DNA from: an uncultured Planktomarina sp.
GTDB lineage: Bacteria > Pseudomonadota > Alphaproteobacteria > Rhodobacterales > Rhodobacteraceae
Assembly: GCA_905182535.1 (NCBI GenBank)
Contig: CAJJBZ010000001.1
Coordinates: forward strand, 248,001-312,000
Length of the DNA stretch: 64,000 nt
Direction: 5' to 3'
Shown here: positions 18,524 to 34,076 of the stretch, piece by piece
Layout of the letters: each line of letters begins with the position of its first letter
How positions within the stretch are numbered: the stretch's first letter is position 1
The notes under the pieces: generated by a model
Database searches by the model: none
What the model was told of the DNA's origin: nothing
Seen by the model: the letters and a program-made list of their open reading frames with translations, nothing else
Position numbers and translations under genes: made by a program

Positions 18524-19955
18524 ATGGTCTCCCGAGTAATACCCGTTGATCCCTTTGATCTAATCATTTTTGGTGGTACCGGTGATTTGGCTCGTCGTAA
18601 GATCCTACCCGGCCTTTTCCGTCGGTTTTGTTCGGGTCAGATGCCGCCTAACGCCCGCATTATTGGCGCTGCACGCGCTGATTTAGGCAAAGTAGGCTAC
18701 CAAGACATGATCCGTGATGCTATCCGCGAATTTGATACAACTAGAAATGTTGAAAACTCTCAATTGGACATGTTTTTGGCGCAGTTGGATTATGTGGTAG
18801 TTGATGTCCGCGGAGATGATGGTTGGTCTGAGCTGGTCACTTTAGTACGTAAAGATTGTATAAATGCTTATTACTTTTCTGTTGGCCCAAATCTGTTTGG
18901 AGATATTGCATGAACTTAATGTGGAGATAGATGGAACACTTGTTAATTCAATTGTTGTTGAAAAACCATTTTTTGATCCAAAAAAACAAATCACTACTTC
19001 CAATTAAGTAAATAAACAAATTTACCGCATTGACCACTACCTTGGCAAAGAAACTGTACAAAACCTGATGGCTGTGCGCTTTGGTAACTTGTTGTTTGAG
19101 CCACTTTGGAACGCACAGTATATCGATCACATCCAAATTACTGTGGCCGAGACGGTCGGTGTTGGTGGGCGTGGCGGTTATTACGATACCTCTGGGGCGA
19201 TGCGCGATATGGTGCAAAACCACTTGATGCAGCTGTTGTGTTTGATTGCGATGGAACCACCGTCGCATTTTGACCCCGATGCTGTGCGCGATGAAAAGCT
19301 AAAAGTGATCCGCAGCTTGGCAAAGGTTGAGCCGCATCACGTGGTGCGCGGGCAATATGATGCCTCCCTTGCAAAAAATAGCTACCGTGATGACGCTGAA
19401 AATCCACGAAGCTTTACCGAAAGCTATGTGGCGATCAAAACGCATATAGAAAACTGGCGTTGGTCGGGTGTACCTTTTTACCTACGAACAGGAAAAAAAT
19501 TAAAAGCTCGTTCGTCTGAAATTGCAATAGTTTTCAAGAAACTACCCCATTCTATTTTCGAAAAATCAAGCGATGAAAAACAAAATGTTCTGGCCATTCA
19601 GTTGCAACCTAATGAGGGTATGACTTTGGACGTAACTATAAAGGAACCTGGCCCGGGTGGGATGCGATTGATCCACGTGCCTTTGGATATGACCTTTGCA
19701 GATGCACTTGGAGAGCATTCGGAAGAGTCACCTGATGCCTATGAGCGCTTGATCATGGATGTGATCAGGGGAGACCAAACTCTGTTTATGCGTGGTGATG
19801 AGGTTGAAGCAGCTTGGAAATGGACAGATCCAATCATTAAAGCTTGGGAAACCCGCAATGATGTGCCGAAGCTTTATGACGTAGGTAGTGCTGGTCCCGA
19901 GGATGCGATGGCGTTAATACATCGCGATGGCCGGCGTTGGCGCGAGATTAAGTGA
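18524..19955 (+). CDS. zwf: Glucose-6-phosphate 1-dehydrogenase, frame broken between 18913 and 19030
   Basis: Zwf oxidises glucose-6-phosphate to 6-phosphogluconolactone, the entry to the Entner-Doudoroff and oxidative pentose phosphate routes. The N-terminus has the Rossmann motif IIFGGTGDLARRK. After the damaged section the catalytic RIDHYLGKE motif, NLMAVRFGN and YLRTGKKL follow, and the C-terminus is intact. Between 18913 and 19030 the sequence turns AT-rich, carries stops and reads as HELNVEIDG...SIVVEKPF and then a shortened stretch before IYRIDHY; in the next frame NHYFQLSK appears, which is also zwf-like. Several indels or a patch from a related AT-rich zwf would explain this. It overlaps pgl by 4 bases. 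Confidence 0.88.
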
Positions 19956-20632
19956 TGCAGTTGTCGAGCTACCAAAACGCGACTGAGATGATGCAGGCTT
20001 TGGCGGAGAGATTGGCCAGTGAATTATCTTCAGTATTGGTTCAAAATGGTCAGGCAACACTTGCGGTTCCCGGTGGAAGCACACCAGGGCCTTTGTTTGA
20101 TATTCTAAGTAAGATCAATCTTGATTGGGCCAACATTACTGTTATGTTGACCGACGAACGCTGGGTGCCCACCGACAGTATAAGATCTAATACTGCATTA
20201 ATCAAAAACCGTCTTTTGGTGAATTCAGCAAGTGCCGCAAATTATGTAGCTTTGTATGAGCTGGGATGTAACCCAAAAGTTGGTGCTGAAACTTTGTCGC
20301 AGCGTGTCGCACCATATTTGCCTATTGATGTTTTAGTTTTGGGCATGGGCGCTGATTTGCATACCGCTTCATTGTTTCCCGGGGCTGTAGAATTAGCTTG
20401 GGCGCAGAGCTCAGAGGCGGCCGCCGTTGTGTCGATAGTGCCAGCTGGTGGAGACCTTGAGCCTCGCGTGACCCTGAGCGCCAATGTGCTTGCCACAGCC
20501 ATTTTTACCCATGTTTTGATCTTGGGTCATGAAAAGAAAGCGGCCTTAGCACGGGCTCAGATTTATTCACCCGCCGAGGCTCCGATTGCCCAGTTTCTGC
20601 CAAATGCCACTGTGCATTGGTGCCCAAGTTAG
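19952..20632 (+). CDS. pgl: 6-phosphogluconolactonase
   Basis: Pgl hydrolyses 6-phosphogluconolactone made by Zwf. LAVPGGSTPGPLFDIL, the VMLTDERWVP motif and VLVLGMGADLHTASLFPG are diagnostic for the DevB/SOL family. The usual histidine of GMGxDGHxAS is at the same place (DLHTAS), with leucine replacing the glycine before it. The protein is intact at 226 residues. Overlap with zwf and a 9-base gap to pgi indicate one operon. Confidence 0.93.
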   Translation: MMQLSSYQNATEMMQALAERLASELSSVLVQNGQATLAVPGGSTPGPLFDILSKINLDWANITVMLTDERWVPTDSIRSNTALIKNRLLVNSASAANYVALYELGCNPKVGAETLSQRVAPYLPIDVLVLGMGADLHTASLFPGAVELAWAQSSEAAAVVSIVPAGGDLEPRVTLSANVLATAIFTHVLILGHEKKAALARAQIYSPAEAPIAQFLPNATVHWCPS

Positions 20633-20641
20633 GAATAGTTT

Positions 20642-22235
20642 ATGTTTGCGGCCTTGAAAGCAAAATACGCGGCGGTCAGAGATCGCAAAATCACAACGTT
20701 GTTTGATGCAAGTCGGGCACATCAGTTTGCAGTACAAACTGATGGATTATTTTTTGATTATTCAAAAACTAATATCGACAGTGAAACCCTTGCGCTGCTG
20801 CTTGAGCTGACTAAATTAACAGGGCTTTCGAACATGCGGGCGGCGATGTTCTCTGGTAAAAAAATCAATATCACCGAAGACCGTGCGGTTTTACATACCG
20901 CCCTGCGCCGGTCTTCTGGAGCTGTTACAGTTGATGGTCAAGATGTGATGCCCAACGTGCTGGCCACCCGTGCGCGGATGATGAAATTTTCCGAAGGGGT
21001 GTGCAGCGGCACTATCCAAGGGCAGGGTGGAGCCTATACCGATATTGTGAACATCGGCATTGGTGGTTCAGATCTCGGACCCGCAATGGCCTATCTTGCG
21101 TTGAAACCCTACTCACAAGGACCAAAAGTACATTATGTCAGCAATGTGGACGGCGCGCATGTGACGGATGTTTTAGCAGGACTTGATGCACAGACTACAT
21201 TGGTGGTTGTAGCCTCCAAAACCTTCACGACCATTGAGACCCTCACTAATGCCGAAACAGCATTGCGCTGGATGGGACAGAGCGTGGCTAACCCCGCGGA
21301 TCAATTTGTAGCCCTCAGCACCGCTGATGATAAAACTGCAGCCTTTGGCATCAGTCCTGATCGGGTCTTTGGCTTTGAGGATTGGGTTGGGGGGCGTTAT
21401 TCACTCTGGGGGCCGATTGGTCTGAGTCTTGCACTCGCGATCGGCTCCGATAATTTCACCGCTCTTTTGAACGGTGCGGCGGCGATGGATGATCATTTCC
21501 AGTCTGCTGATGGCACTAAAAACCTCCCGATAATGCTGGCTTTGGTTGGGATTTGGCACGCACAGGTCGCAGGCTATACCACCCGGGCAGTGCTGCCATA
21601 TGAGCAACGCTTGTCACGGTTTCCAGCCTATTTGCAGCAGCTTGAGATGGAATCCAACGGCAAGAGCGTGGGCATTGATGGTCAAGATTTAACTGTCCCC
21701 TCAGGCCCAATTGTATGGGGTGAGCCGGGGACCAATGGGCAGCATGCCTTTTACCAGCTGATCCATCAAGGCACCCATATCATCCCTTGCGAATTTATGA
21801 TTGCAAAGGTTGGACATGAGCCAAATCTGTCCCATCAGCATCAGCTTTTACAAGCCAATTGCTTGGCCCAGTCGCAGGCATTGATGCTTGGGCGTGACTT
21901 GGATGCAGCTCGTCGCTATTGCAGCCTCCAAAGGCTTTGAAGGGTCAGAGCTGGAGCGCCAAGCCCGCCACCGTGTATTCACGGGCAACCGGCCCTCCAC
22001 CACGTTGATCTATCCCAAATTGACGCCCTATTGTTTGGGACAGTTAATCGCACTCTATGAACATCGCGTCTTCGTTGAAGGTGTGATTTTGGGGATCAAT
22101 TCCTTTGATCAATGGGGGGTTGAGTTGGGCAAGGAATTGGCCACCGCTCTTGGTCCTGTGATTGCAGGCGCAGACCCCGGCCCTGAGAATGACCCCTCGA
22201 CCTTAAATTTAGTGTCAAAACTGACGCAAAGCTGA
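20642..22235 (+). CDS. pgi: Glucose-6-phosphate isomerase, frameshifted near 21915
   Basis: Pgi interconverts glucose-6-phosphate and fructose-6-phosphate. Seen are [16 protein letters not shown], the [13 protein letters not shown] block, [13 protein letters not shown], the catalytic glutamate in [11 protein letters not shown], and the histidine in [16 protein letters not shown]. The frame fails in GRDLDAAR and resumes in the next frame with [32 protein letters not shown] and [13 protein letters not shown], the normal C-terminal domain with its catalytic lysine. One extra C near 21915 explains it. Rejoined length is about 530 residues. Confidence 0.93.
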
Positions 22236-22237
22236 GG

Positions 22238-23327
22238 TTATAGCTCGATTACCTTTTTTTCTAGGGCTGATTTCTGGGCGGCTTGTCCTATGCGCACAGC
22301 CCAAATCCCGTCTTGGAGGCTCACTTCCGGAGAAAGCCTGCCCAATACCGCAGCTTGAAACCTTTGGTGTTGATAAAAGGTGGAGCCGTTGTGATCACCG
22401 GCAGCCAGCAACGCTGTTGGCACGGGCGTATTTATGCGTGTTGGGTTCATCGGACTGCGGGGGCTGACGATCAATTGCGGGATTGGGGCATCGCCCAGAT
22501 GCGCAGGCCAGAAACGGCCCGGCCCTGGCACAAGCGCCTCGATCTTGCCCTTTGGGGCCAACCACGCTCACCTCTTCTTGATAACGCGATCCTTCGGCAA
22601 ACATGCACAGTTCCAGCATCGCGCGCATGCGCCAGTTTCAAAATCCACAATGACATAACCGTTGTCGATAATATCTGATGTTTGACCGTCATAAACCTCG
22701 TCCAAATGGTTCACGTTCTGGCCCGCACTGGCCATGATCCGCACGGGTTCTGATTTGGTCAGCAAACGCATCAGATCAAAGAAGTGACAACATTTCTCAA
22801 CGAATGTGCCACCCGATTTGCTTGTTAAAGCGATTCCAATCACCAATTTTGGGCAGGAACGGAAACCGATGCTCACGGATGGTCAGCATTTTGATACCAC
22901 CAGTGATTTCTTGGGCCTGTGCGATGAGTGCGGCAACCGGGGGCATATAACGATATTCCATCGCCACCCAAACTTGACTTGGGTAGGACTGCGCAAATGA
23001 CTGAGCCAGCGCAAGATCTGCCGGATCGGTGAACAAGGGTTTTTCACATAGAATGGGCAGGGCACGTTGGGCGGCAATCTCGATAAGCTGAGGCATGTGG
23101 CAATGGTTTGGACTGACAATTACTAAGCAATCTAATGGGTCATGCGCCAAAAGCGTTTCAAGACTGTCGACCATCACAGCTTGGGGCAGGGTTTGTGCCG
23201 CAAGCGCCCGCATCTCTAAATCTGGTTCAAAAACCACTGAAATTTCGGCATCTTCTAGCAGAGCAATATTACGAATATGCTCACGGCCCATCATCCCACA
23301 GCCGATCAATCCATAGTTCAGTGTCAT
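22238..23327 (-). CDS. Gfo/Idh/MocA family oxidoreductase, two or more frameshifts
   Basis: An NAD(P)-dependent sugar or cyclitol dehydrogenase. The N-terminal Rossmann motif [13 protein letters not shown] and the CEKPLF motif with the conserved lysine are intact up to about 22825. The frame then changes: [18 protein letters not shown] follows (the catalytic histidine region of the family), then [20 protein letters not shown], then a further change near 22560-22620 to [13 protein letters not shown] and the C-terminus. Combined length is about 363 residues, normal. It lies 9 bases downstream of the GntR gene on the same strand and is likely in its regulon. The substrate may be a sugar handled with the divergent monooxygenase operon. 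Confidence 0.82.
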
Positions 23328-23336
23328 ATCATATCC

Positions 23337-24050
23337 TTATTTGATGCGGGCTACATAGCGTGCCACGTTTGGATCGTACCAATTGCGGGAAAACTCAAGA
23401 GGCTTGCCGGTATTTGCCCAAGCGATTCTTTCGACATATCCAGCTGTGTCGCCGGGACGCAGGCCAAATTGATCTACGCCCCAGTCCGGAACTGGCGCGA
23501 AAGTTACGTGATCCTCAGCGCGCACAATCCAAAAGCCAAACCGAGTTTGGTAGGTGTGATAAAGCGACTCTGACACCTCATGACGCGCAACAGAAGTGGC
23601 AACAGATCCGTCCAACCAAATCTCCTCCAAAGCTGCGGGACGATGGTCTAAAAATCGTAATCTGCGGAAGCGAAATCCTTGCGTATCGGGACCAAAATGG
23701 GGGGATTTTGGTGGCTTGGACAACCGGTCTACGGTGAGTAATTCTGCTGTTGGTAACCCAGCACCAGTGAGCGATTCTAATCTAAAAAAAGAATATAAAT
23801 TAGAGGCTTGTGGAGAAGAATTTACGTAATTACCTGAGCCATGCTTGGGTTGGATGAGGTCTTGTTTTTGCAACATTTGCAAGGCTTTGCGCAATGTACC
23901 AACCGCAACCCCAAACTCTGCCGCCATCTTCCGCTCTGTCGGCAGGCGTTCTCCACCCAAAAGCTGGCCAGCATGGATGCGCCGAGCAATGGCTTCGCTG
24001 ATCTGCACATAGGCTGGTAACGAGCCAGAATGTGGTGGGGTTTGCGTCAT
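23337..24050 (-). CDS. GntR family transcriptional regulator (HutC type)
   Basis: The N-terminal winged helix reads VQISEAIARRIHAGQLLGGERLPTERK in pieces, then FGVAVGTLRKALQMLQ and the wing KHGSGNYV. The rest is a UTRA ligand-binding domain (RLRFLDHRPAALEEIWLD, FAPVPDWGVDQFGL, EFSRNWYDPNVARYV). HutC-type proteins usually repress a linked catabolic operon and release DNA on binding a pathway intermediate. I start it at the ATG at 24050 (MTQTPPHSG); a start at 24071 adds seven residues. It is divergent from the monooxygenase operon, and an inverted repeat lies in between. Confidence 0.9.
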   Translation of the reverse strand: MTQTPPHSGSLPAYVQISEAIARRIHAGQLLGGERLPTERKMAAEFGVAVGTLRKALQMLQKQDLIQPKHGSGNYVNSSPQASNLYSFFRLESLTGAGLPTAELLTVDRLSKPPKSPHFGPDTQGFRFRRLRFLDHRPAALEEIWLDGSVATSVARHEVSESLYHTYQTRFGFWIVRAEDHVTFAPVPDWGVDQFGLRPGDTAGYVERIAWANTGKPLEFSRNWYDPNVARYVARIK

Positions 24051-24082
24051 AGATTTCCAGAATTGATACACTATTGATTTAT

Positions 24083-24102
24083 ATTTAAATGCGGGTTTAA
24101 AT
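24083..24102. promoter_or_regulatory. Candidate GntR operator
   Basis: ATTTAAA-TGCGGG-TTTAAAT is a perfect 7-base inverted repeat with a 6-base spacer. It lies in the 84-base gap between the divergent GntR and monooxygenase genes, where a local regulator would control both directions. Assignment to this regulator is an inference from position and symmetry. Confidence 0.45.
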
Positions 24103-24134
24103 GGATTAATGCAAGTAAAGTTTTTTATCTTCTC

Positions 24135-25293
24135 ATGAACATCGTTCCCATTACCTCCGCAGGGCTAAATGCTGCTGAAGTATCGTGGTTTTCAGCACTC
24201 TGTTCTGACGACTACCAATATTTGGGCCTGCCAGATGGGGCGCTGCGCTCATCTTGGGAGCATTGTAGTCAGATTGTACAAAAATCTGAGTCCAATGGAT
24301 TTCGCAACATCCTCTGTCCATCCTCTTATCAGGTAGGACAAGACACCCTGTCTTTCGTGGCAGGCTGTGCGCCGATCACTGACAAGATCAATATGCTGGC
24401 AGCCATCCGTTGTGGTGAGATGCAACCCATCATGTTGGCGCGCTCGGTGGCGACGCTGGACCACATGCTCAAGGGTCGGTTGACACTCAATGTTATCTCC
24501 TCAGATTTCCCTGGTCAAAAAGAACCAAGCCCTTATCGCTATCAGCGATCTCGTGAAGTAGTCCAAATCTTGAAACAGGCTTGGACCCAAGACGAGATCA
24601 ACTTTAATGGTGAGATCTACAATTTTGAGGGGGTCAGCACAGAGCCTGCGCGACCTTATCAGAAAAATGGTGGGCCTTTGCTGTATTTTGGTGGTTATTC
24701 ACCCGATGCTATTGAGCTTTGTGCGGAGCATTGCGACGTGTATTTGATGTGGCCAGAGAGCAAAGAGCGATCTCGCCAATAGGATGCTTGCAGTTAATAC
24801 TCGCGCCAAGGCGCATGGCCGCACGCTCGATTACGGGTTGAGGGTGCATATGATCGTCCGTGACACGGAGGCTGAGGCACGAGAGTTTGCTCGCGAATTG
24901 GTTTCAAAGTTGGATGATGAGACCGGCAGTGCAATCCGTGACCGCGCCCTTGATAGCGGCTCTTTGGGCGTATCGCGACAAGCGCGCAACCGAGATTTGG
25001 CCGATATGGAAGGTTTCATTGAACCGCATCTCTGGACCGGAGTAGGACGCGCCCGTTCCGGCTGTGGGGCCGCATTAGTGGGATCTGCAGATCAAGTTTT
25101 GTCCGAAATAGAAGCCTATCAGAAAATGGGCATGCGCTCCTTTATATTTTCAGGATATCCACATCTTGACGAATGTGACTATGTGGGAAAATTGGTTTTA
25201 CCCGAATTGAAAACTTGTTCGCTGCCGCATGAATATGGCCGTGTGCCGACTGAAACGCCTGCAACACCCCTAGGAAATGGACCCCGCCGATAA
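24135..25293 (+). CDS. SsuD-like flavin-dependent monooxygenase (LLM family), frameshifted near 24775
   Basis: A two-component FMNH2-dependent monooxygenase of the bacterial luciferase fold. It aligns by eye with alkanesulfonate monooxygenase SsuD: VSWFSALCSDDYQYLG at the N-terminus, MLAAIRCGEMQPIMLARSVA, TLDHMLKGRLTLNVIS, LLYFGGYSPDAIELCAEHCD, and the C-terminal FSGYPHLDEC. SsuD relatives split the C-S bond of sulfonates to give sulfite and an aldehyde; the sulfoquinovose monooxygenase SmoC belongs to this family. The frame breaks after WPESKERS and resumes at MLAVNTRAKAHGRTLDYGLR; full length is about 386 residues. The stop overlaps the aldo-keto reductase start (TAATG). Sulfonate use is an inference supported by the neighbours. 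Confidence 0.85.
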
Positions 25294-26177
25294 TGGAACG
25301 TATTTCTCTTAATAATGACGTCACGCTGAGCCGGCTGATCTATGGTATGTGGCGTCTTTCGGATGACACCGATACCAGTCCATCACATGTTCAGGCTAAA
25401 ATCGAAGCTTGTTTGGCGCAGGGTATCACGACGATGGATCAAGCTGATATTTATGGCGGATACGAGGCGGAAGAGGTTCTGGGTAATGCTCTCCGCGCCG
25501 CGCCGCAGGTGCGTGACCAGATCGAAATTGTGACCAAATGCGATATTGTTGTGGGGGCAGGACGGTATGCCAATACGCAAGTCAAGCATTACGATACTTC
25601 GGCTGCTCATATTTCTGCGTCAGTTGATCACTCGCTGCGTTTAATGGACACGGATCACATTGATTTACTGCTGATACACCGTCCTGATCCGCTTATGAAC
25701 CACCACGAGACGGGTGCAGCACTAGATGCTGCAATAGCATCTGGCAAGGCGTTGAGTGTCGGAGTATCAAATTTTCGCCCTCATGATTGGAATTTGCTAC
25801 AATCTGCGATGGAAACACCACTTGTCACCAACCAGATTGAAATGAGTGTGCTGGAAAATAGTTCCTTTACCAATGGTGATTTGGCATTTCTGCAAGAGCG
25901 TGACATTCCACCCATGGCATGGTCACCCTTGGCGGGTGGTTTATTATTTTCAGATGAAAACCCAGCTTTGTTGTCTCTTTTAACTGAAATAGGAAACGGC
26001 GATGCTGCTTCATCCAGTGTCGCATGGCTGTTGGCCCACCCAGCCCGCATAATGCCAATTTTGGGAACAAATAGTTTGAGTCGGATTAAAGCGCTTTCGC
26101 GGAGTTGCTCGTTACCGATGGATCGCGAAACATGGTTTAAAATTTATACTACTGCCCTCGGTCATGAGGTAGCCTAA
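25293..26177 (+). CDS. Aldo-keto reductase
   Basis: An NADPH-dependent (beta/alpha)8 oxidoreductase of the YdhF-like group. The catalytic tetrad is visible: aspartate and tyrosine in MDQADIYGGYEAEEVLG, lysine in EIVTKCDI and histidine in LLLIHRPDPLM. SVGVSNFRPHDW and VTNQIEMSV form the substrate and nicotinamide sites, and PILGTNSLSRI near residue 260 contacts NADPH. It is 294 residues, intact. It sits between a sulfonate-type monooxygenase and a flavin reductase, the same trio as SmoC, SmoB and SmoA of the oxidative sulfoquinovose route, in which the reductase turns 6-oxo-glucose to glucose. The identity of this substrate is inferred only from context. Confidence 0.9.
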   Translation: MERISLNNDVTLSRLIYGMWRLSDDTDTSPSHVQAKIEACLAQGITTMDQADIYGGYEAEEVLGNALRAAPQVRDQIEIVTKCDIVVGAGRYANTQVKHYDTSAAHISASVDHSLRLMDTDHIDLLLIHRPDPLMNHHETGAALDAAIASGKALSVGVSNFRPHDWNLLQSAMETPLVTNQIEMSVLENSSFTNGDLAFLQERDIPPMAWSPLAGGLLFSDENPALLSLLTEIGNGDAASSSVAWLLAHPARIMPILGTNSLSRIKALSRSCSLPMDRETWFKIYTTALGHEVA

Positions 26178-26179
26178 AA

Positions 26180-26734
26180 TTGCAGATTAAATTGGACAAA
26201 TTGGTTCCTAGACCTGAAGAAAGCTTGCGGGAGTTCAGGGTCGCTCTGGGACAGTTTGCAACAGGGATTACAATTATAACCTGTTGTTATAAGGGGATTC
26301 CCATGGGTATTGTAGCCAATAGCTTCGCTAGTGTGTCAATGGATCCGCCGCTAGTTTTGTGGTCACCAGCCAAAGTGTCACGACGGTATAACGCTTTTAT
26401 AACAGCGCAAAATTATTCCATACATATACTTAGCAACAAGCAAAAGCATATTTGTGACGCGTTTTCTAAGGCCGCTAGAGCCTTCGATGGCTTGGACTGG
26501 AAAACTAACAAAGATGGTGTGCCAATTCTATCTAATTGTCTCGCTAGAATTGATTGTCATCAATATGCTCAGTATCCGGGTGGTGACCATACAATTATAG
26601 TTGGGCATGTTGATTGTTTTGATTATACGGCTGGTGAACCGCTTATTTTTCAACAAGGGAATTTCAGTAATATAAAGGTTTCAAAAGCTTCAATTGACCA
26701 ATTAGTTGCAACAAAAGAGAGTGCAGCTATATGA
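26180..26734 (+). CDS. Flavin reductase (FMN-binding, RutF/HpaC-like)
   Basis: This family reduces FMN with NAD(P)H to feed a two-component monooxygenase. The core reads LREFRVALGQFATGITIIT, GIVANSFASVSMDPPLVLW and YSIHILSNKQKHICDAFS, then a GGDHTIIVGHVD strand, typical of split-barrel flavin reductases. At 184 residues it is a full-length member. Start is a TTG at 26180, only 2 bases after the aldo-keto reductase stop; a GAGGT lies about 10 bases before it, and no ATG lies nearby in frame. The likely partner is the SsuD-like enzyme two genes upstream. The gene is AT-richer than the two before it. Confidence 0.88.
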   Translation: MQIKLDKLVPRPEESLREFRVALGQFATGITIITCCYKGIPMGIVANSFASVSMDPPLVLWSPAKVSRRYNAFITAQNYSIHILSNKQKHICDAFSKAARAFDGLDWKTNKDGVPILSNCLARIDCHQYAQYPGGDHTIIVGHVDCFDYTAGEPLIFQQGNFSNIKVSKASIDQLVATKESAAI

Positions 26735-27318
26735 TTTTTATGATCGAAATACTAAAACCTCTTCAGTTTTTTAACGATATTGCAGGCAAAGTTGGTCGAT
26801 CTATTTCGGTAATTGCTTTAGCGTTAATGGTATTTATAATTTTATTGCAGGTATTTTGTCGCTATATTTTAAACAATGCACTCCCGTGGCCTGACGAAGC
26901 TGCACGTTTTTTAATGCTATGGTTAACTGGCTTAATGGCTCCAATAGCGTTAAGGCAAAGTGGATTTGTGGCAATTGATACTTTGCACCGGTTTCTACCT
27001 CGCCGTGGTGTATCTCTTCTCGCACTTATTTTAGCCTTAACTTCACTAATAGTGCTTTCGGTAGCTGTTCAATTAGGTTGGAAACATGTCAACTCTGGCT
27101 GGCTTTTTTCCAGTGCGTCGTTAAAAGTCCCATTGCAATTAATTGGTTTCAAAATGATTAAGATGAAACTTGCTTGGATGTATCTCTCTATGTTTGTGGG
27201 AGTGGCGCTCATGATTGCCGTAAACATTGAGATGATACTTCGGCAACTTATAGTTTTGGGTGACAAAAATACAAAACTTAGACCTATTCCTAACCTTGAA
27301 ATTGAAAAGGTAGAATGA
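26731..27318 (+). CDS. dctQ: TRAP transporter small membrane subunit DctQ
   Basis: DctQ is the four-helix small membrane subunit of a tripartite ATP-independent periplasmic transporter. Four hydrophobic segments are visible in 195 residues, with the family motifs LLQVFCRYILNNALPWPDEAAR in two parts and SGFVAIDTL. It overlaps the flavin reductase by 4 bases and dctM by 4 bases, which ties transport to the monooxygenase enzymes in one transcript. The charged C-terminal tail is cytoplasmic. Confidence 0.92.
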   Translation: MIFMIEILKPLQFFNDIAGKVGRSISVIALALMVFIILLQVFCRYILNNALPWPDEAARFLMLWLTGLMAPIALRQSGFVAIDTLHRFLPRRGVSLLALILALTSLIVLSVAVQLGWKHVNSGWLFSSASLKVPLQLIGFKMIKMKLAWMYLSMFVGVALMIAVNIEMILRQLIVLGDKNTKLRPIPNLEIEKVE

Positions 27319-28607
27319 TGTTACTTTGGTTTCTACCGTTATTTTTGTTATTTCTTCTCATTGGTTTACCAGTTTTTTTTGGTTTATTAGCTGCGCCCGG
27401 CCTTTTATTATGGTTGAGTGGTCAAGAACGAGACATTGGCCTTCTTTATAGAAACGTCTACAACGGGATAGACAGCTTCCCATTAATGGCTATCCCGTTT
27501 TTTATGCTTGCAGGGGAGCTGATGAACCGTGGCGGTATTACAAGTAGGCTTGTGGAATTTGCGCAAGCGATGATGGGTCACTTGCGAGGCGGATTAGCTC
27601 ACGTAAATATTTTATCGTCAATGTTATTTGCAGGTTTATCAGGCTCAGCGGTTGCAGACACATCAGCTTTGGGGTCCATGTTGATCCCGGCTATGGAAAA
27701 ACAAGGCTATACACGGCGGTTTGCAGCAGCAATTACCGCAGCCAGCTCAGTTATTGGGCCAATTATACCGCCTTCAGGCATTATGATAATCTATGCATAT
27801 GTAATGGGTGAAAGCGTTGCTGCCTTGTTCTTAGCAGGGATAGTTCCAGGAATAATGGTTGGCCTCGGATTAATGATGACTGTAAAAGTTATGGCTGACC
27901 GGTACAATTTTCCAGTTGCTAGTGCGAAGTACACATGGAATGAACGTGGGCAAGCAAGTCTAAAAGCTTTTTTTCCACTTTTAACACCTATTATTATTCT
28001 GGGTGGGATACTTGGTGGTATTTTTACTCCAACTGAGGCTGCAGCGGTTGCGGTAGGATATGCCACATTTATAGGTTTATTTGTGCTGAAATCTCTTCGC
28101 TTTAGCGATCTTCCAAATGTACTTACAAAAGCGGCAATGACATCATCAGTTGTTTTGCTTTTAGTTGGTGGTGCAATGGCATTTAAAACCGTGGTTAGCC
28201 TTAGTCATGCCCCAGAAATTCTTGCTGCTTACATTGTCTCACTCTCAAACAATCCTCTGGTTCTATTATTTTTAATTAATATTCTGCTATTTATAGTAGG
28301 GATGTTTTTAGATGCTGGCCCCGCAATTATTATATTGGGACCTATTTTGGGCCCAATATTTATTAGCCTAGGCGTAGACCCTATTCATTTCGCAATAATT
28401 ATGAGTGTCAATTTAACAGTTGGCCTTGCAACACCGCCTATGGGCCTGGTTCTTTTCGTAGCTTCATCTGTTTCAGGTGAACGTGTAGAAGCAATCGCTA
28501 GAGCCATTATGCCATTCCTTTTGGTTGAAATTATTGTGATTTTTTTAATCACCTATATTCCAGCCATTTCGATGACGATCCCACGCTTAACGGGGTTCGT
28601 GAATTAA
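27315..28607 (+). CDS. dctM: TRAP transporter large membrane subunit DctM
   Basis: DctM is the large sodium-coupled transport subunit, with about 12 helices in 430 residues. Family motifs include PLMAIPFFMLAGELMNRGGI, LSSMLFAGLSGSAVADTSALG, SSVIGPIIPPSGIMIIYA and TPTEAAAVAVGYA. All are intact. It lies between dctQ (4-base overlap) and dctP (30-base gap with a GGGAGG ribosome site). Substrate is set by the DctP protein. Confidence 0.95.
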   Translation: MMLLWFLPLFLLFLLIGLPVFFGLLAAPGLLLWLSGQERDIGLLYRNVYNGIDSFPLMAIPFFMLAGELMNRGGITSRLVEFAQAMMGHLRGGLAHVNILSSMLFAGLSGSAVADTSALGSMLIPAMEKQGYTRRFAAAITAASSVIGPIIPPSGIMIIYAYVMGESVAALFLAGIVPGIMVGLGLMMTVKVMADRYNFPVASAKYTWNERGQASLKAFFPLLTPIIILGGILGGIFTPTEAAAVAVGYATFIGLFVLKSLRFSDLPNVLTKAAMTSSVVLLLVGGAMAFKTVVSLSHAPEILAAYIVSLSNNPLVLLFLINILLFIVGMFLDAGPAIIILGPILGPIFISLGVDPIHFAIIMSVNLTVGLATPPMGLVLFVASSVSGERVEAIARAIMPFLLVEIIVIFLITYIPAISMTIPRLTGFVN

Positions 28608-28637
28608 CCTAAACAGCAAAAATCTAGGGAGGATAAT

Positions 28638-29694
28638 ATGCTAAAAGGTACAATAAAGTCGCTAATATCGGCGGCAATTCTGGTAACTGGTGCTGTCTCA
28701 GTACAGGCAGCCGATTTCACAATTCGCGCTACAGCGAATTCGAATGAAAACGATGAAGACTATGATGGTCTAGTTGTATTCAAAAACTTCGTTGAAAGTG
28801 CTTCGAACGGAGCTATCGAGGTAGAACTGTTTATCGGTACTCAGCTTTGCTCAAAAGGTGCAGAGTGTTTGCAGGGTGTAGCCGATGGTTCAATTGATGT
28901 GTATATTTCAACATCTGGTGGTGCCGCAGGCATCTTCCCATATGTACAAGTGTTAGATTTACCTTATTTAATGGCAGATGATCGGGTTGCAGAGCATGTA
29001 TTATCAGGCGACTTTACCCGTACGTAGAAAAATGGCTCTGGATAATTCCGGTGGAAAAATTCGCCTAATGACAATTGGTAATACCGGTGGATGGCGTAAT
29101 TTTGCTAACACAAAGCGTCGCGTTCAAAGCCCTGATGACATGGCTGGTTTGAAGATCCGCACAGTAGTAGCAGATCTTCCACAAGAATTAGTCAAAGCCC
29201 TTGGTGCCTCTCCTACACCCATTCCGTGGCCTGAGCTGTTTACTTCCTTTCAAACAGGCGTTGTCGAAGGTTCTAAAAACGGCATAACTGACATTATGGG
29301 TATGAAATTTCCCGATGCTGGATTGCAATACGTAACGCTAGACGGTCATGCATATATGGGTGCTCTTTGGTGGATGTCGAATGATAAGTTTATGTCAATG
29401 CCAGCTGAAATGCGCACAATCATAGTTGACGGTTTTGCTCAATTGCAGCAGGCAACCTTTGCGTCTCCTAAACGAAAATCAATTCAGGCATACGCTGACT
29501 TTGTTTTGGGTGGTGGTGATCTGTATGTTCCAACACCAGCTGAAAAAGGAGCGTTTAAAGACGCCGCAGCTCCGGTCTATGATTGGTTTAAGTCAAACGT
29601 CGAGGGTGGCGAGGCAATATTTGATGCTTTAACTTCTGCTGTTGCAAAAGCAGAATCTGAGCTCAATGCAGGTCGTGCAGCTGATATTCAATAA
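28638..29694 (+). CDS. dctP: TRAP transporter substrate-binding protein DctP, frameshifted near 29022
   Basis: A periplasmic solute receptor with a signal peptide (MLKGTIKSLISAAILVTGAV, cut after VQA). The conserved arginine that pairs with an acidic ligand group is in AGLKIRTVVADLPQ, and VVEGSKNGITDI and ALWWMSNDKF line the cleft. An LCSKGAEC element near residue 75 has two cysteines that may form a disulfide. The frame stops at 29025 after SGDFTR and continues in the next frame with MALDNSGGKIRLMTIGNTGG. Rejoined length is about 350 residues. TRAP receptors bind acids and, in known cases, sulfonates such as isethionate and DHPS, which fits the sulfonate idea but does not prove it. Confidence 0.88.
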
Positions 29695-29806: not shown

Positions 29807-30316
29807 CTATCTGAATGGGTAGAGCCAAACACGGTAATCATCGATCAAAACATGAGCTTTATTAATTTGTTCCTTTGTCATTTTCTTAACTACTTCTTCC
29901 TGACTGATCATTGCGTCAGGATCGTTGCCAATGGCAGAAAGCACATACCAGAGATAGGCTCGTACAAGGTCAATTGCAGGCATTCCGAGTCCAACTTCAT
30001 AATACCAACCGACACCAGACTGGGCTCCGGGATGACCCTTCATAGCACTCCGCAAATACCACTCAAACGCGCGCTCATAGTCTTGCTCCACCCCCAAACC
30101 CATTGCATACATTACGCCTATGAGTTCCTCTGCTTCTGCATTTCCGGAGCGAGCAGCAGGCCACAGAGCAGTACGGGCCTCAACAAACCTTCCCTCTTCC
30201 ATAAGATCTCGCGCCTCCTCAAGCTCTGCGTCAGCCTGTGTGCTGCTAATAATAAGCACCACTCCCATCAGCAGCGCACCGAAGTGACCTATAATCCTTG
30301 GTCGAAAATACCGCAT
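29807..30316 (-). CDS. Secreted Sel1-repeat protein
   Basis: The 169-residue product has a signal peptide (ALLMGVVLIISSTQADA) and TPR-like Sel1 repeats: EEARDLMEEGRFVEART, AEELIGVMYAMGLGVEQDYERAFEWYLRSA and AQSGVGWYYEVG with ALWPAARSGNA before. Such proteins act as protein-binding scaffolds in the periplasm. The start may be the ATG at 30316 or the one at 30268, which gives a shorter signal. It is divergent from the peroxidase gene with almost no room between the two starts if 30316 is used. The function is unknown. Confidence 0.8.
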   Translation of the reverse strand: MRYFRPRIIGHFGALLMGVVLIISSTQADAELEEARDLMEEGRFVEARTALWPAARSGNAEAEELIGVMYAMGLGVEQDYERAFEWYLRSAMKGHPGAQSGVGWYYEVGLGMPAIDLVRAYLWYVLSAIGNDPDAMISQEEVVKKMTKEQINKAHVLIDDYRVWLYPFR

Positions 30317-30337
30317 CTTTTAGTTTCCCTGTTACTT

Positions 30338-31613
30338 ATGGCCTCGCCAAGTACTGCTGAACAATATCCCTTATCCGAAAATCAATTTCACCCAATTGAT
30401 CCACAAAAAGCAAGTATTGGACAACTTTTATTTTATGATAAAGTTCTATCTGGCAACCAAAATATAAGTTGTAGCACATGCCATCATCCGAAACACGGTG
30501 GGGGAGATGGTCTGAGCCTTGGTATAGGTGAGGGTGGATTAGGGCTTGGCCCAGAGCGCACTCCTGGCAAAGGTGCTCAGAAAATTCGGAAGCGTATTCC
30601 AAGAAATGCAAGTGCTTTATGGAACTTGGGACACAAATCGATAAATGTGATGTTTCACGATGGTCGCCTTGAAATTAGTGATATTTACCAAAATGGTTTC
30701 AACTCACCGGCTCAAGAATGGCTGCCAAATGGCTTAGACACGCTAATATCTGCTCAAGCAATTTTCCCGCTTGTTGCACAATTTGAAATGGCCGGAAATC
30801 CGAAAGAAAATGAAATCGCCGGAGCCATACATGATCGTATTGATGCTGCTTGGCCCATATTGGCCAAAAGGGTGCGCCTAATTCCTCAGTATGGCGACCT
30901 TTTCGTAGAAGCCTTTGATAATATAGATGTTCCTCAGAATATTACCATCGTTGAAATAGCAAAGGCATTAGTCTGCCTTTATTAACCTTGAATGGCGAAG
31001 CTATGACAGCCCATACGATGATTTTATTAGTAACGGAACCGATCTGCCTAAAGCAGCTGAGAGAGGGCGAAAAGTCTTTTTTGAAAGTGGACGATGTTCA
31101 GTTTGCCATAGTGGGCCTCTTTTGAGTGATCAGAAATTCTATGCGCTTTCACTACCAGCTTTTGGACCTGGTAGAACTCGACGATTTGATCCTGCAGCTC
31201 GCGATATTGGACGTATGGGGGAAAGCGATTTGGTGGAGGATGCCTATCGGTTCAAAACTCCGCGCCTTCGGAATGTTGCCTTGACTGCCCCATATGGCCA
31301 TAATGGTGCTTATCCTACTTTGGAGGGGATTGTGCGTCACCACTTAGACCCAGCAGGTATGCGTATTAAATGGCAACGTAATATGGCTGAACTACCTTTG
31401 GTTCCTTGGCTCCAAGATATAGATTTTGTGGTTCAATCAGATCGATTTGAAATGGAGCGACAAAGTAAAAAAATTGATATAACGGCAAAAGCTCTAAGTG
31501 ATCAGGAAGTTTTCGATATAGTAAGCTTTCTCGAAAGCTTAACAGGAAAATCTGCTAAGTTAGGGACGCTTGGTATACCAGAAAGTGTTCCAAGTGGACT
31601 AAGTATCGATTGA
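30338..31613 (+). CDS. Di-haem cytochrome c peroxidase/MauG family protein, frameshifted near 30970
   Basis: A periplasmic di-haem protein. The first haem site is SCSTCHHPKHGG and the second is SGRCSVCHSGPLL. The second half has TPRLRNVALTAPYGHNGAYPTLEG, where the histidine and following residues resemble the MauG/CcpA ligand region. The frame stops after AKALV at 30984 and resumes as AFINLEWRSYDS; one extra T explains this. Rejoined length is about 425 residues. In frame just before the ATG at 30338 there is a hydrophobic export-like stretch (PHLLVSLLL then MASPSTA) but no ATG or GTG to start it, so the true N-terminus is probably damaged too. The substrate is unknown. Confidence 0.82.
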
Positions 31614-31937
31614 AGTTGTGGCAAATACTTCTTTAAATCTGTTCAGAATACCTGCACTATCAGATATTAGGGATTATAGACTTTGAGTGGGTTAGCCTAA
31701 AGAATACTTTTCTAAATTGTACTTTACCTATCAGATAATATTGTAATTTTTTTATTAAAAACAAAAAATCTATATTCGATTGTTAAACAATAGTTTTATA
31801 GATTTTTATTGAGTTCGAACAAATAAAATGATTTTTTGCAACCGGTTGCAAAAATAATAATCATATGCTTATCTAATAATTGTCGGCAAAATATTTGTTT
31901 GACAATTATAAATTATAAATTCGTCTGGGAGGACCTC
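31614..31937. other. AT-rich leader of the sugar ABC operon
   Basis: This 324-base gap has no gene. Its last 110 bases hold the palindrome at 31834-31853, a TTGACA at 31899-31904 inside a TTGTC/GACAA inverted repeat, and the GGGAGG ribosome site for the binding-protein gene. The first 180 bases are AT-rich without a clear structure. Confidence 0.6.
31834..31853. promoter_or_regulatory. LacI-type operator upstream of the sugar ABC operon
   Basis: A perfect 20-base palindrome, TTTTGCAACCGGTTGCAAAA, with the central CG step and half-site GCAACC typical of LacI-family operators. It lies 85 bases before the binding-protein start. The same 16-base core recurs at 39467-39482 before the divergent dehydrogenase operon. 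The likely binder is the LacI-family protein at 35275-36276. Confidence 0.8.
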
Positions 31938-32888
31938 ATGAAAACTGTAATAAAGTCGCTCGCAATTGGCGCTGCTTTGTTTGCATCACCTATTACAGCC
32001 CTGGCTGGCAGCCACGGTGATAACCTAAAATACGTTCTTGTAAGCCACGCACCTGATAGTGATAGCTGGTGGAACACAATCAAAAATGGCATTGCCCTTG
32101 CGGGAGAGCAAATGGGCGTTGATGTTGAGTATCGCAATCCACCAACAGGTGATTTAGGAGATATGGCTCGTATAATCGATCAAGCTGCAGCTTCCGCACC
32201 AAACGGGATTATAACAACCCTTGCAGATTATAGTGTACTAAAAGGTCCTATAATGAACGCAGTAGCTAGTGGTGTTGATGTTATAATTATGAATTCAGGC
32301 ACACCAGAACAGGCGCGTGAAGTAGGCGCGCTTATGTATGTAGGTCAGCCTGAGTATGATGCAGGATATGCTGCGGGTTTACGTGCAAAAGGCGACGGCG
32401 TTGCTAGCTTCTTGTGTGTTAACCATTATATCTCATCACCATCATCCACAGATCGTTGCCAAGGGTTTGCAGATGGCCTTGGTATTAAACTTGGAAACCA
32501 GATGATTGACTCAGGTCAAGATCCATCCGAAATTAAAAACCGGGTTTTAGCGTATTTGTCTGCCAACCCTGATACTGACGCTGTCCTAACACTTGGCCCA
32601 ACATCTGCAGATCCTACTCTATTAGCTTTGGACGAGAACGGTATGGCAGGTGATATCTACTTTGGAACATTTGATCTCGGTACAGAGATTGTAAAGGGTA
32701 TCAAGGCTGGCGTAATTAGCTGGGGCATCGACCAACAGCCATTCTTGCAAGCTTACTTACCAGTTGTTGTAATGGCCAACTACCATCGTTATGGTGTTCT
32801 TCCTGGAAACAACATCAATTCTGGCCCAGGGTTTGTAACTGCTTCTGGCCTTGAGATGGTTGAAAAGTTTGCTGGCGAATTCCGCTAA
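31938..32888 (+). CDS. Sugar ABC transporter substrate-binding protein (ribose/fructose type)
   Basis: A periplasmic-binding protein of the type 1 sugar family. The start at 31938 has a strong GGGAGGACC site and gives a signal peptide ending ITALAG. The mature protein has KYVLVSHAPDSDSWWNTIKNG, PNGIITTLADYSVL, VDVIIMNSGTPEQ, VGQPEYDAGYAAGLRA and FGTFDLGTEIVKGIKAG, matching FrcB-like and related pentose/hexose/cyclitol receptors. Length is 316 residues. The permease follows after a terminator-like hairpin, a common arrangement that keeps more receptor than membrane protein. The sugar is not deducible; a cyclitol or rare hexose fits the downstream dehydrogenases. Confidence 0.9.
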   Translation: MKTVIKSLAIGAALFASPITALAGSHGDNLKYVLVSHAPDSDSWWNTIKNGIALAGEQMGVDVEYRNPPTGDLGDMARIIDQAAASAPNGIITTLADYSVLKGPIMNAVASGVDVIIMNSGTPEQAREVGALMYVGQPEYDAGYAAGLRAKGDGVASFLCVNHYISSPSSTDRCQGFADGLGIKLGNQMIDSGQDPSEIKNRVLAYLSANPDTDAVLTLGPTSADPTLLALDENGMAGDIYFGTFDLGTEIVKGIKAGVISWGIDQQPFLQAYLPVVVMANYHRYGVLPGNNINSGPGFVTASGLEMVEKFAGEFR

Positions 32889-32896
32889 AACTAAGA

Positions 32897-32934
32897 AGGG
32901 CGGAGCTTTTTGAACAAAAGCTCCGCCCCTTTTT
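32897..32934 (+). terminator. Intrinsic terminator between receptor and permease genes
   Basis: A 13-base-pair perfect stem (GGGCGGAGCTTTT with AAAAGCTCCGCCC), a 5-base loop and a T run follow the receptor stop by 8 bases. It should stop most transcripts, leaving partial read-through to the permease and ATPase genes, so receptor mRNA would be more abundant. Confidence 0.88.
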
Positions 32935-32960
32935 TATGTAAAGACTATAGGGTGAATTTG

Positions 32961-34076
32961 ATGAATAATAAATTATCTATTCCAGATGAACGTGTTAAAG
33001 AGATGTCTACTTTTAGAAACTCTCTTATCCGTCCTGAACTTGGTGGGATTATTGGAACCATAGTAGTCTTTATTATATTTATAATTCTTGCGTCTGATAG
33101 TGGGATGTTCAGCTCGCAGGGCGTTCTAAACTGGTCCATTGTCTCTGCGCAATTCATGATTATTGCCGTGGGTGCTTGCCTGCTAATGATTGCTGGTGAG
33201 TTTGATCTTAGTGTTGGTTCTATGATCGGATTTGCCGGAATGCTAATTGCCATTTTTGGTGTTACATTTGGATGGCCCATGTGGATGGCAATATTACTGA
33301 CCTTTGCCATTTGCATTGCAATTGGAGCACTGAATGGTTTCATCTGCATACGAACTGGATTACCAAGTTTTATTGTTACTCTGGCCTTTCTCTTCATTTT
33401 GCGCGGTTTCACAATTTTTTTACCACAAACTATAGAACGTAAAACTATTATTGGGGGAATTAGAGAAGCAGCTGAAGGAGATTGGCTGGGTGCGGTATTT
33501 GGCGAAAAACTATTTATGGGATTTTTTCAGTATCTGGGTGATCTTGGCATTATTAGCGTATTCTCTCGCGGTACACGCGCCGGCGAACCAGTAGTAAACG
33601 GAATACCAATGCTCATAGTGTGGGCACTAATACTCGTGGCGTTTGGTCATATACTGTTAACTAAGACACGGTTTGGTAATTGGATTTTTGCATCAGGTGG
33701 TGATGCTGAAGCTGCAAGAAATTCAGGCGTTCCAGTGAATAAAGTTAAGATATTGATGTTTATGTTCACAGCTTTTTGCGCAACAGTTTTCGCTACCTGT
33801 CAAGTTATGGAGTTTGGTTCTGCTGGGGCGGACCGAGGTCTTTTGAAAGAATTTGAAGCTATTATTGCTGTTGTGATTGGTGGCGCACTGCTTACTGGCG
33901 GCTATGGCTCTGTAATTGGTGCAGCTTTAGGCGCTTTGATTTTTGGAGTTGTTCAACAAGGCTTATTTTTCGCTGGGGTAGAGAGTTCTCTTTTTCGAGT
34001 TTTTCTTGGTTTGATACTGTTAGGTGCCGTTATACTGAACACATACATCCGTCGCTTAATTACAGGGGAGCGTTAA
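32961..34076 (+). CDS. Sugar ABC transporter permease
   Basis: An inner-membrane permease of the RbsC/FrcC/XylH type with about nine to ten helices in 371 residues. Conserved blocks are LLMIAGEFDLSVGSMIGFAG, ALNGFICIRTGLPSFIVTLA, NWIFASGGDAEAARNSGVPV and GGALLTGGYGSVIGAALG. The start at 32961 (MNNKLSIPDE) is chosen because an earlier in-frame start would lie inside the terminator. It overlaps nothing and is 1 base from the ATPase gene. Confidence 0.92.
   Translation: MNNKLSIPDERVKEMSTFRNSLIRPELGGIIGTIVVFIIFIILASDSGMFSSQGVLNWSIVSAQFMIIAVGACLLMIAGEFDLSVGSMIGFAGMLIAIFGVTFGWPMWMAILLTFAICIAIGALNGFICIRTGLPSFIVTLAFLFILRGFTIFLPQTIERKTIIGGIREAAEGDWLGAVFGEKLFMGFFQYLGDLGIISVFSRGTRAGEPVVNGIPMLIVWALILVAFGHILLTKTRFGNWIFASGGDAEAARNSGVPVNKVKILMFMFTAFCATVFATCQVMEFGSAGADRGLLKEFEAIIAVVIGGALLTGGYGSVIGAALGALIFGVVQQGLFFAGVESSLFRVFLGLILLGAVILNTYIRRLITGER

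Follow-up and report, generated by a model that had tools for sequence, protein, structure and literature searches.

Sulfoquinovose (SQ) is a sulfur-containing sugar that abounds in the membranes of plants and algae. In the excerpts of the literature on which we draw here and below, its annual production is put at about 10 billion tons (PMC10755693), Roseobacter-type bacteria are named among its marine consumers (PMC13372026), and the importers described for it are ATP-binding cassette (ABC) systems (PMC9594981 among the papers). NAD+-dependent sulfoquinovosidases of glycoside hydrolase family 188 (GH188) are near-universal in the Roseobacter clusters of the sulfoquinovose monooxygenase (sulfo-SMO) pathway and have also been reported in clusters of the sulfo-Embden-Meyerhof-Parnas (sulfo-EMP) pathway (Kaur et al. 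2023, PMC10755693). Here we describe a locus in a 64,000-nucleotide stretch of DNA from an uncultured Planktomarina sp. (contig CAJJBZ010000001.1, positions 248,001 to 312,000; below, the window). The locus is very likely a sulfolytic SQ cluster of the sulfo-SMO kind, with import by a tripartite ATP-independent periplasmic (TRAP) system, a cytoplasmic GH188 enzyme, and SmoC, SmoA and SmoB, which would lead on to glucose. This reading is based on sequence family membership, kept residues, conserved gene order and the association with the importer; the substrate of the importer, the direction of flow, the regulation and the activity in this organism are what we infer. As judged from its genes, the cluster belongs to a type that Roseobacter bacteria are already known to carry, a sulfo-SMO cluster with its own glycosidase, and the TRAP importer is its less known part.

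Enzymes and gene order of the locus

The operon (window positions 22238 to 29694) carries SmoC, SmoB, SmoA, DctQ, DctM and DctP on the forward strand, with the regulator and a Gfo/Idh-type gene on the reverse strand. The predicted features are as follows.

22238..23327, (-): GH188 NAD+-dependent sulfoquinovosidase (SqgA type), in three frame pieces; solved-structure matches and kept residues
23337..24071, (-): GntR/UTRA transcriptional regulator, divergent from the operon; Pfam GntR 1.2e-16, UTRA 3.5e-20
24135..25293, (+): SmoC, flavin-dependent sulfoquinovose monooxygenase, with one frame break near 24770-24784; solved-structure search
25293..26177, (+): SmoB, 6-oxo-glucose reductase (aldo-keto reductase); 7bby/7bbz 1.7e-123
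26180..26734, (+): SmoA, flavin reductase; Pfam Flavin_Reduct 1e-33, and the same operon position in many relatives
26731..27318, (+): DctQ, TRAP small permease; Pfam 8.5e-23
27315..28607, (+): DctM, TRAP large permease; Pfam 1e-117, NCBIfam dctM above cut-off
28638..29694, (+): DctP, TRAP substrate-binding protein, with a frame break near 29020; Pfam 2.1e-12 and 4.8e-34 on the pieces

The six forward genes are separated by -1, 2, -4, -4 and 30 bases, and the Pfam matches and the spacing place all three subunits of the TRAP importer in a single operon. An earlier sequence-only reading of this DNA had listed a monooxygenase, an aldo-keto reductase, a flavin reductase and DctQ-DctM-DctP in an overlapping operon; all of these are present, in that order and with that overlap.

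In the search of solved structures, the two halves of the monooxygenase matched 7olf (6.8e-118) and 7oh2 (2.3e-83), with SsuD-type entries reaching at best 8.1e-24 and 2.4e-29 for the two halves; the summed bits of both halves were 673 for 7olf versus 184 for 1m41. The titles of 7olf and 7oh2 are methanesulfonate sulfonatase and alkanesulfonate monooxygenase, but we take both to be SmoC. Over its first 90 residues, 7olf is identical to an Agrobacterium pusense protein (locus L109) that is adjoined by SmoB, a GH31 enzyme and SmoF-type ABC genes. Loss of the sulfonate-pocket arginines was looked for in the alignment, and R226 and R297 of SsuD, as well as H228, are aligned to identical residues in the window monooxygenase; these three are presumably the sulfonate-pocket residues of the SsuD type. 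The reductase matched 7bby/7bbz at 1.7e-123, the next entry following at 6.5e-62; that structure is titled aryl-alcohol dehydrogenase and is assumed here to be SmoB. The predicted monooxygenase and aldo-keto reductase thus resemble SmoC and SmoB much more than they do SsuD or other reductases, which, with the pocket residues kept, bears out the sequence-only reading in its proposal of a sulfoquinovose monooxygenase route.

The Gfo/Idh-type gene of the window is broken into pieces that are 69 to 77% identical to an intact gene of a relative (locus L038, 12194 to 13279). The product of the intact gene matched the solved structures 8zn9 (1.2e-148), 8qc3 (5.3e-109) and 8qc2 (2.3e-106), the next best match being an inositol dehydrogenase (4.3e-17). 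8QC3 and 8QC2 are ArSqgA and FlSqgA, NAD+-dependent sulfoquinovosidases of GH188; in ArSqgA, for which the catalytic residues are also named, the sulfonate is held by Arg166, Lys172 and the backbone of Leu170 (PMC10755693). ArSqgA residues K107, Y136, R166, L170, K172, E189, H193 and H321 are kept in the alignment with the L038 protein (Glu163 was not placeable by counting), and the matching residue stretches, GDHNG among them, were all found in the pieces of the window. By its matches and residues, the gene is a GH188 NAD+-dependent sulfoquinovosidase with sulfonate-binding residues, whereas the sequence-only reading had seen no sulfoquinovosidase here. The divergent GntR regulator and the Gfo/Idh dehydrogenase with which that reading had completed its set are both present, but the latter is not merely a dehydrogenase. 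An inositol-type dehydrogenase was considered and rejected: the broad Pfam family would allow it, but the nearest NCBIfam model stayed below its cut-off and the match to solved GH188 structures was far better. No GH31 match was found in the same draft genome (2.39 Mb, 74% complete). The GH188 identity, taken with the published Roseobacter clusters that combine sulfo-SMO and GH188, makes the core of the locus known biology.

In the route that we propose, the TRAP importer DctP-DctQ-DctM would take up SQ or SQ glycosides (sulfoquinovosyl glycerol, for example), and the cytoplasmic GH188 enzyme would free SQ with NAD+ as catalytic cofactor. SmoC, with flavin reduced by SmoA, would cut the C-S bond to give sulfite and 6-oxo-glucose, which SmoB would reduce to glucose, and glucose would enter metabolism via glucokinase and the neighbouring zwf-pgl genes. 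The divergent promoters would be under the control of the GntR protein. The GH188 orthologue of L038 begins directly at the nucleotide-binding motif, with no signal-like stretch, and because such an enzyme needs NAD+, the glycosides should be imported intact. The same genome encodes (i) a glucokinase (5.8e-72), (ii) a protein whose best match is a SoxC-type sulfite dehydrogenase model (1.1e-73 on a stretch of 157 amino acids), and (iii) four TauE-type proteins above cut-off; none of these lies beside the cluster.

The same gene block recurs in relatives, both within the genus and in other genera, so that the gene order is not due to chance. The order with TRAP is kept in eight genus loci, the window included, and in two of the three other genera fetched. 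Among the genus loci fetched, the importer adjoins the Smo genes in eight and does not in seven; three end too early to judge. SmoC may depend on a different flavin reductase in L037-L043, where no such gene was found adjoining SmoB. In L037, L038, L039 and L055, ~5 to 6 kb beyond the intact SmoB, there is a second SmoB-like copy, which is broken.

The TRAP importer and its gene contexts

A scan of named genomes gave at least 570 SmoC relatives, of which the best 80 were kept; these are the nearest to the query and hence not an even sample. Thirteen loci with short flanks, six of them with TRAP, were dropped before counting, which left 67. A TRAP importer of this type adjoins SmoC in 27 of these, always with GH188 (27/27) and never with GH31 (0/27). 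GH31 was found in 10 loci, none with TRAP and seven with an SmoF-type ABC importer; of the remaining three, L127 has just 3.2 kb upstream. Other ABC permease matches lie at most 7 kb downstream in 8 of the 67 loci, no importer was recognised in 22, and neither glycosidase (GH188 or GH31) was present in 3. Among 66 loci, TRAP and GH31 exclude each other with a Fisher p of 0.008 (kinship is ignored in this and the following Fisher tests). On the SmoC tree, the TRAP label is more clustered than expected by chance (1 of 500 shuffles gave a value that low), but it needs 15 changes, 11 of them forced by well-supported branches. We therefore rejected the view that the link is a relic of one shared ancestor; with such repeated changes, importers have been exchanged.

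In the family as a whole (110 genomes from 109 genera; DctP type at E <=1e-90, SmoC at E <=1e-120), this DctP type was found in 41 genomes and SmoC in 42. Both occur together in 30, against 15.7 expected (Fisher, 6.6e-9), and 29 of the 30 pairs lie at most 6 kb apart, the remaining pair being on separate contigs.

The loci of the 11 family genomes with the DctP type but without SmoC were also fetched. Eight of them (L135, L136, L138, and L141-L145) encode a GH188 enzyme (44 to 52% identical to the probe), a PfkB-type kinase and an isomerase-like protein. All but L142 add a LacD/YihT-like aldolase, a DeoR-type regulator and a 2-hydroxyacid dehydrogenase-like gene, and three of the eight have an aldehyde dehydrogenase. 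Models were run on the proteins of L135 and L136; the remaining loci were assigned from their resemblance to these two. The sole NCBIfam match of the L135 isomerase-like protein at 1e-10 was the sulfoquinovose isomerase model (5.2e-83); it had no solved relative at 1e-5. These eight loci are read as carrying a putative sulfo-EMP-type set, a hybrid in the terms used in the part of PMC12890257 drawn on here. As to the other three, L139 has SmoB, SmoA, GntR and GH188 but no SmoC, L140 has of these only SmoA, and L137 has not one of the four, with no GH188 in its 20-kb stretch.

The DctP tree comprised 51 proteins: 41 with the SMO label (including L139), eight EMP-type and two others. The EMP-type label needs at least five changes, four of which are forced by well-supported branches, and not one of 200 bootstrap trees groups the EMP-type proteins as a single clade. 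The SMO and EMP-type contexts are intermixed on this tree. One importer type is thus joined to two gene sets that share SQ as their start, and this is the main evidence for its substrate, pointing to SQ or its glycosides. The sequence-only reading had left the choice between free SQ and another sulfonate; SQ is retained, with its glycosides added, and other sulfonates appear disfavoured.

The DctP protein itself is distant from all solved TRAP proteins, with 4p47 (4.6e-32) as the best match and the isethionate-binding IseP at 1.8e-26. Its residues R154, R175 and N215 (L055 numbering) align to R152, R173 and N213 of 4P47, the triad of two arginines and an asparagine by which the anion, in IseP a sulfonate, is held (PMC11668362). 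These three residues and W198 are invariant in the 30 DctP proteins aligned. An AlphaFold model based on 30 rows had a mean predicted local distance difference test score of 77, falling below 50 at residues 202 to 224, a quality too low for a sugar pocket to be read from it.

Further genes border the operon:

29807..30316, (-): Sel1-repeat protein with a signal-like N-terminus, TRAP companion; Pfam Sel1 on the L053 orthologue
30317..31613, (+): MauG-like di-haem protein with two CxxCH motifs, broken, start uncertain; Pfam CCP_MauG 6.4e-33 on the L053 orthologue
19068..22235, (+): zwf, pgl and pgi (glucose-6-phosphate metabolism), context; names read from the translations, no family search

The Sel1 and MauG-like genes stand directly past DctP, and both starts are signal-like as judged by eye; the MauG-like protein looks periplasmic. 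Their nearest NCBIfam models, MerG and a His-Xaa-Ser-associated MauG-like protein, were both below cut-off. The MauG-like gene was found in 13 of the 27 TRAP loci but in 1 of the 40 other SmoC loci, and the Sel1 gene in 13 of 27 and 0 of 40, respectively. The MauG clade, defined as at least 52% identity to L053 (a cut set after the next matches had been seen at 48% or less), is present in 28 of the 110 family genomes, 26 of which have the DctP type (Fisher, 1.4e-12). Within the DctP genomes it is about as frequent without SmoC (8/11) as with it (18/30), which suggests that it follows the importer and not the pathway. The pair was seen with the TRAP importer across genera and in two gene contexts (window 29807-31613, L035, L038, L053, L135-L138, L142, L143, and L145). 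In the open-licence literature, no related paper was found for sulfoquinovose with cytochrome c peroxidase, as judged by title and abstract start. On the other side of the cluster, genes similar to zwf, pgl and pgi adjoin it in L035, L036, L038-L040 and L042. Past the locus, at 31836-34076, the window encodes a permease and a sugar-type ABC binding protein whose nearest model, a rhizopine-type one, was below cut-off.

It is conceivable, though we put it forward only tentatively, that a DctP-type TRAP importer and GH188, often with a periplasmic MauG-like protein and a Sel1 protein that have their role in uptake, form a transferable sulfoquinovoside-uptake module that is plugged into SMO and EMP-type pathways across marine Alphaproteobacteria; this would be the first TRAP system known to import a sulfosugar. 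No link between TRAP genes and SQ was found in the open-licence literature searched, and we do not claim that the link is unpublished. The word "trap" is absent from the main texts of the SQ reviews and surveys PMC13372026, PMC12890257 and PMC9594981, of the GH188 paper PMC10755693 and of a paper on 2,3-dihydroxypropanesulfonate (DHPS), and in the other SQ papers checked it denotes a column, an ion trap or the verb. The importer would be the entry step for SQ or its glycosides into such cells. If so, it would let genome surveys recognise sulfosugar uptake despite differing downstream pathways, and it offers a direct binding test.

Alternative explanations

Several observations weigh against the proposed cluster and its importer. 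The window's own genes are frame-broken, and its genome is only 74% complete. The anion-holding triad of DctP also binds carboxylates and so does not single out sulfonates. Twelve of the 42 SmoC genomes lack this DctP, including one that is 100% complete and of the same genus (G012), so TRAP is not required for SmoC. On the side of the second pathway, the match to the SQ isomerase model is below cut-off (279 of 700 bits), the EMP-type label is more clustered on the DctP tree than expected by chance (3 of 500 shuffles gave a value that low), and L137 and L140, two of the 11 loci without SmoC, have no recognised SQ enzyme set. In L137 (genome G033), the DctP type adjoins sulfatase-like, dioxygenase-like (PhyH-like) and deacetylase-like open reading frames, named by eye; this exception may be a sign of a different sugar with a sulfate or sulfonate group. 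That locus would suit an importer with a different substrate (DHPS, isethionate, a dicarboxylate or a sulfated sugar) that is a mere neighbour of the enzymes, and so would the small size of the sulfonate bound by the solved sulfonate TRAP protein (PMC11668362). We consider such an importer quite unlikely, as one DctP type is repeatedly joined to two different SQ gene sets and the genes overlap within the operon. It is unlikely, to a lesser degree, that the enzymes degrade SQ while the importer takes up only free SQ (or glycosides enter otherwise) and GH188 serves other needs. IseP is highly selective (PMC11668362), and Roseobacter bacteria were proposed to use just free SQ before GH188 was found (PMC10755693); however, an NAD+-needing enzyme without a signal-like stretch requires that glycosides reach the cytoplasm, and GH188 accompanies every full-flank TRAP locus.

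The two other alternatives concern the genes themselves. Three genes of the locus are frame-broken, namely, the monooxygenase (24135-24782 and 24784-25293), DctP (28638-29027 and 28978-29694) and the Gfo/Idh-type gene (reverse strand; 22797-23327, 22568-22876, and 22238-22561), and the relative L139 has lost SmoC, as would be expected of a decaying remnant. Yet a near relative with 91% DNA identity across 13.9 kb (L035) has an open monooxygenase and DctP, and its Gfo/Idh-type gene is open until the start region meets masked or unknown bases (an N run). When L035 genes of at least 200 amino acids that match the window were counted, 6 of 13 were broken in the stretch with the locus versus 4 of 12 on one side of it and 5 of 13 on the other, and the housekeeping gene pgi is broken as well. 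Because the flanks are broken at a similar rate, we read the breaks as assembly error and not as decay of the locus, and a remnant in this organism is very improbable. A role of the monooxygenase in sulfur supply, as an SsuD- or MsuD-type enzyme that assimilates alkanesulfonates, is scarcely credible. The best NCBIfam model for the monooxygenase is SsuD-type, but far below cut-off (243.8 versus 518.2 bits for the intact L035 protein; also for the window halves), SmoB and GH188 adjoin it, and the bit-score gap between 7olf and the SsuD-type 1m41 led us to reject that function.

Comparison with known systems

The proposed sulfo-SMO cluster shares SmoC/SquD, SmoB/SquF and the flavin reductase with the sulfo-SMO (sulfo-ASMO) pathway of Agrobacterium tumefaciens and Novosphingobium aromaticivorans, as described in the parts of PMC9594981 and PMC12890257 used here. 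The Agrobacterium loci likewise have a GntR regulator adjoining SmoC, but they contain ABC importer genes and GH31, whereas the window has a TRAP importer and GH188 instead. The sequence-only reading had already noted that known loci import by an ABC system, and the TRAP genes do stand where Agrobacterium-type loci have their ABC genes. In the Roseobacter sulfo-SMO clusters of PMC10755693, GH188 adjoins the Smo enzymes, as in the window; the main text of that paper contains neither "transport" nor "trap," whereas the window cluster has a TRAP importer. The isethionate system of IseP (PMC11668362) is a case of sulfonate import by TRAP, and its anion-holding arginines and asparagine are shared with the DctP of the window. 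However, the two proteins are only distantly related, and the expected substrate of the window importer is a six-carbon sulfosugar.

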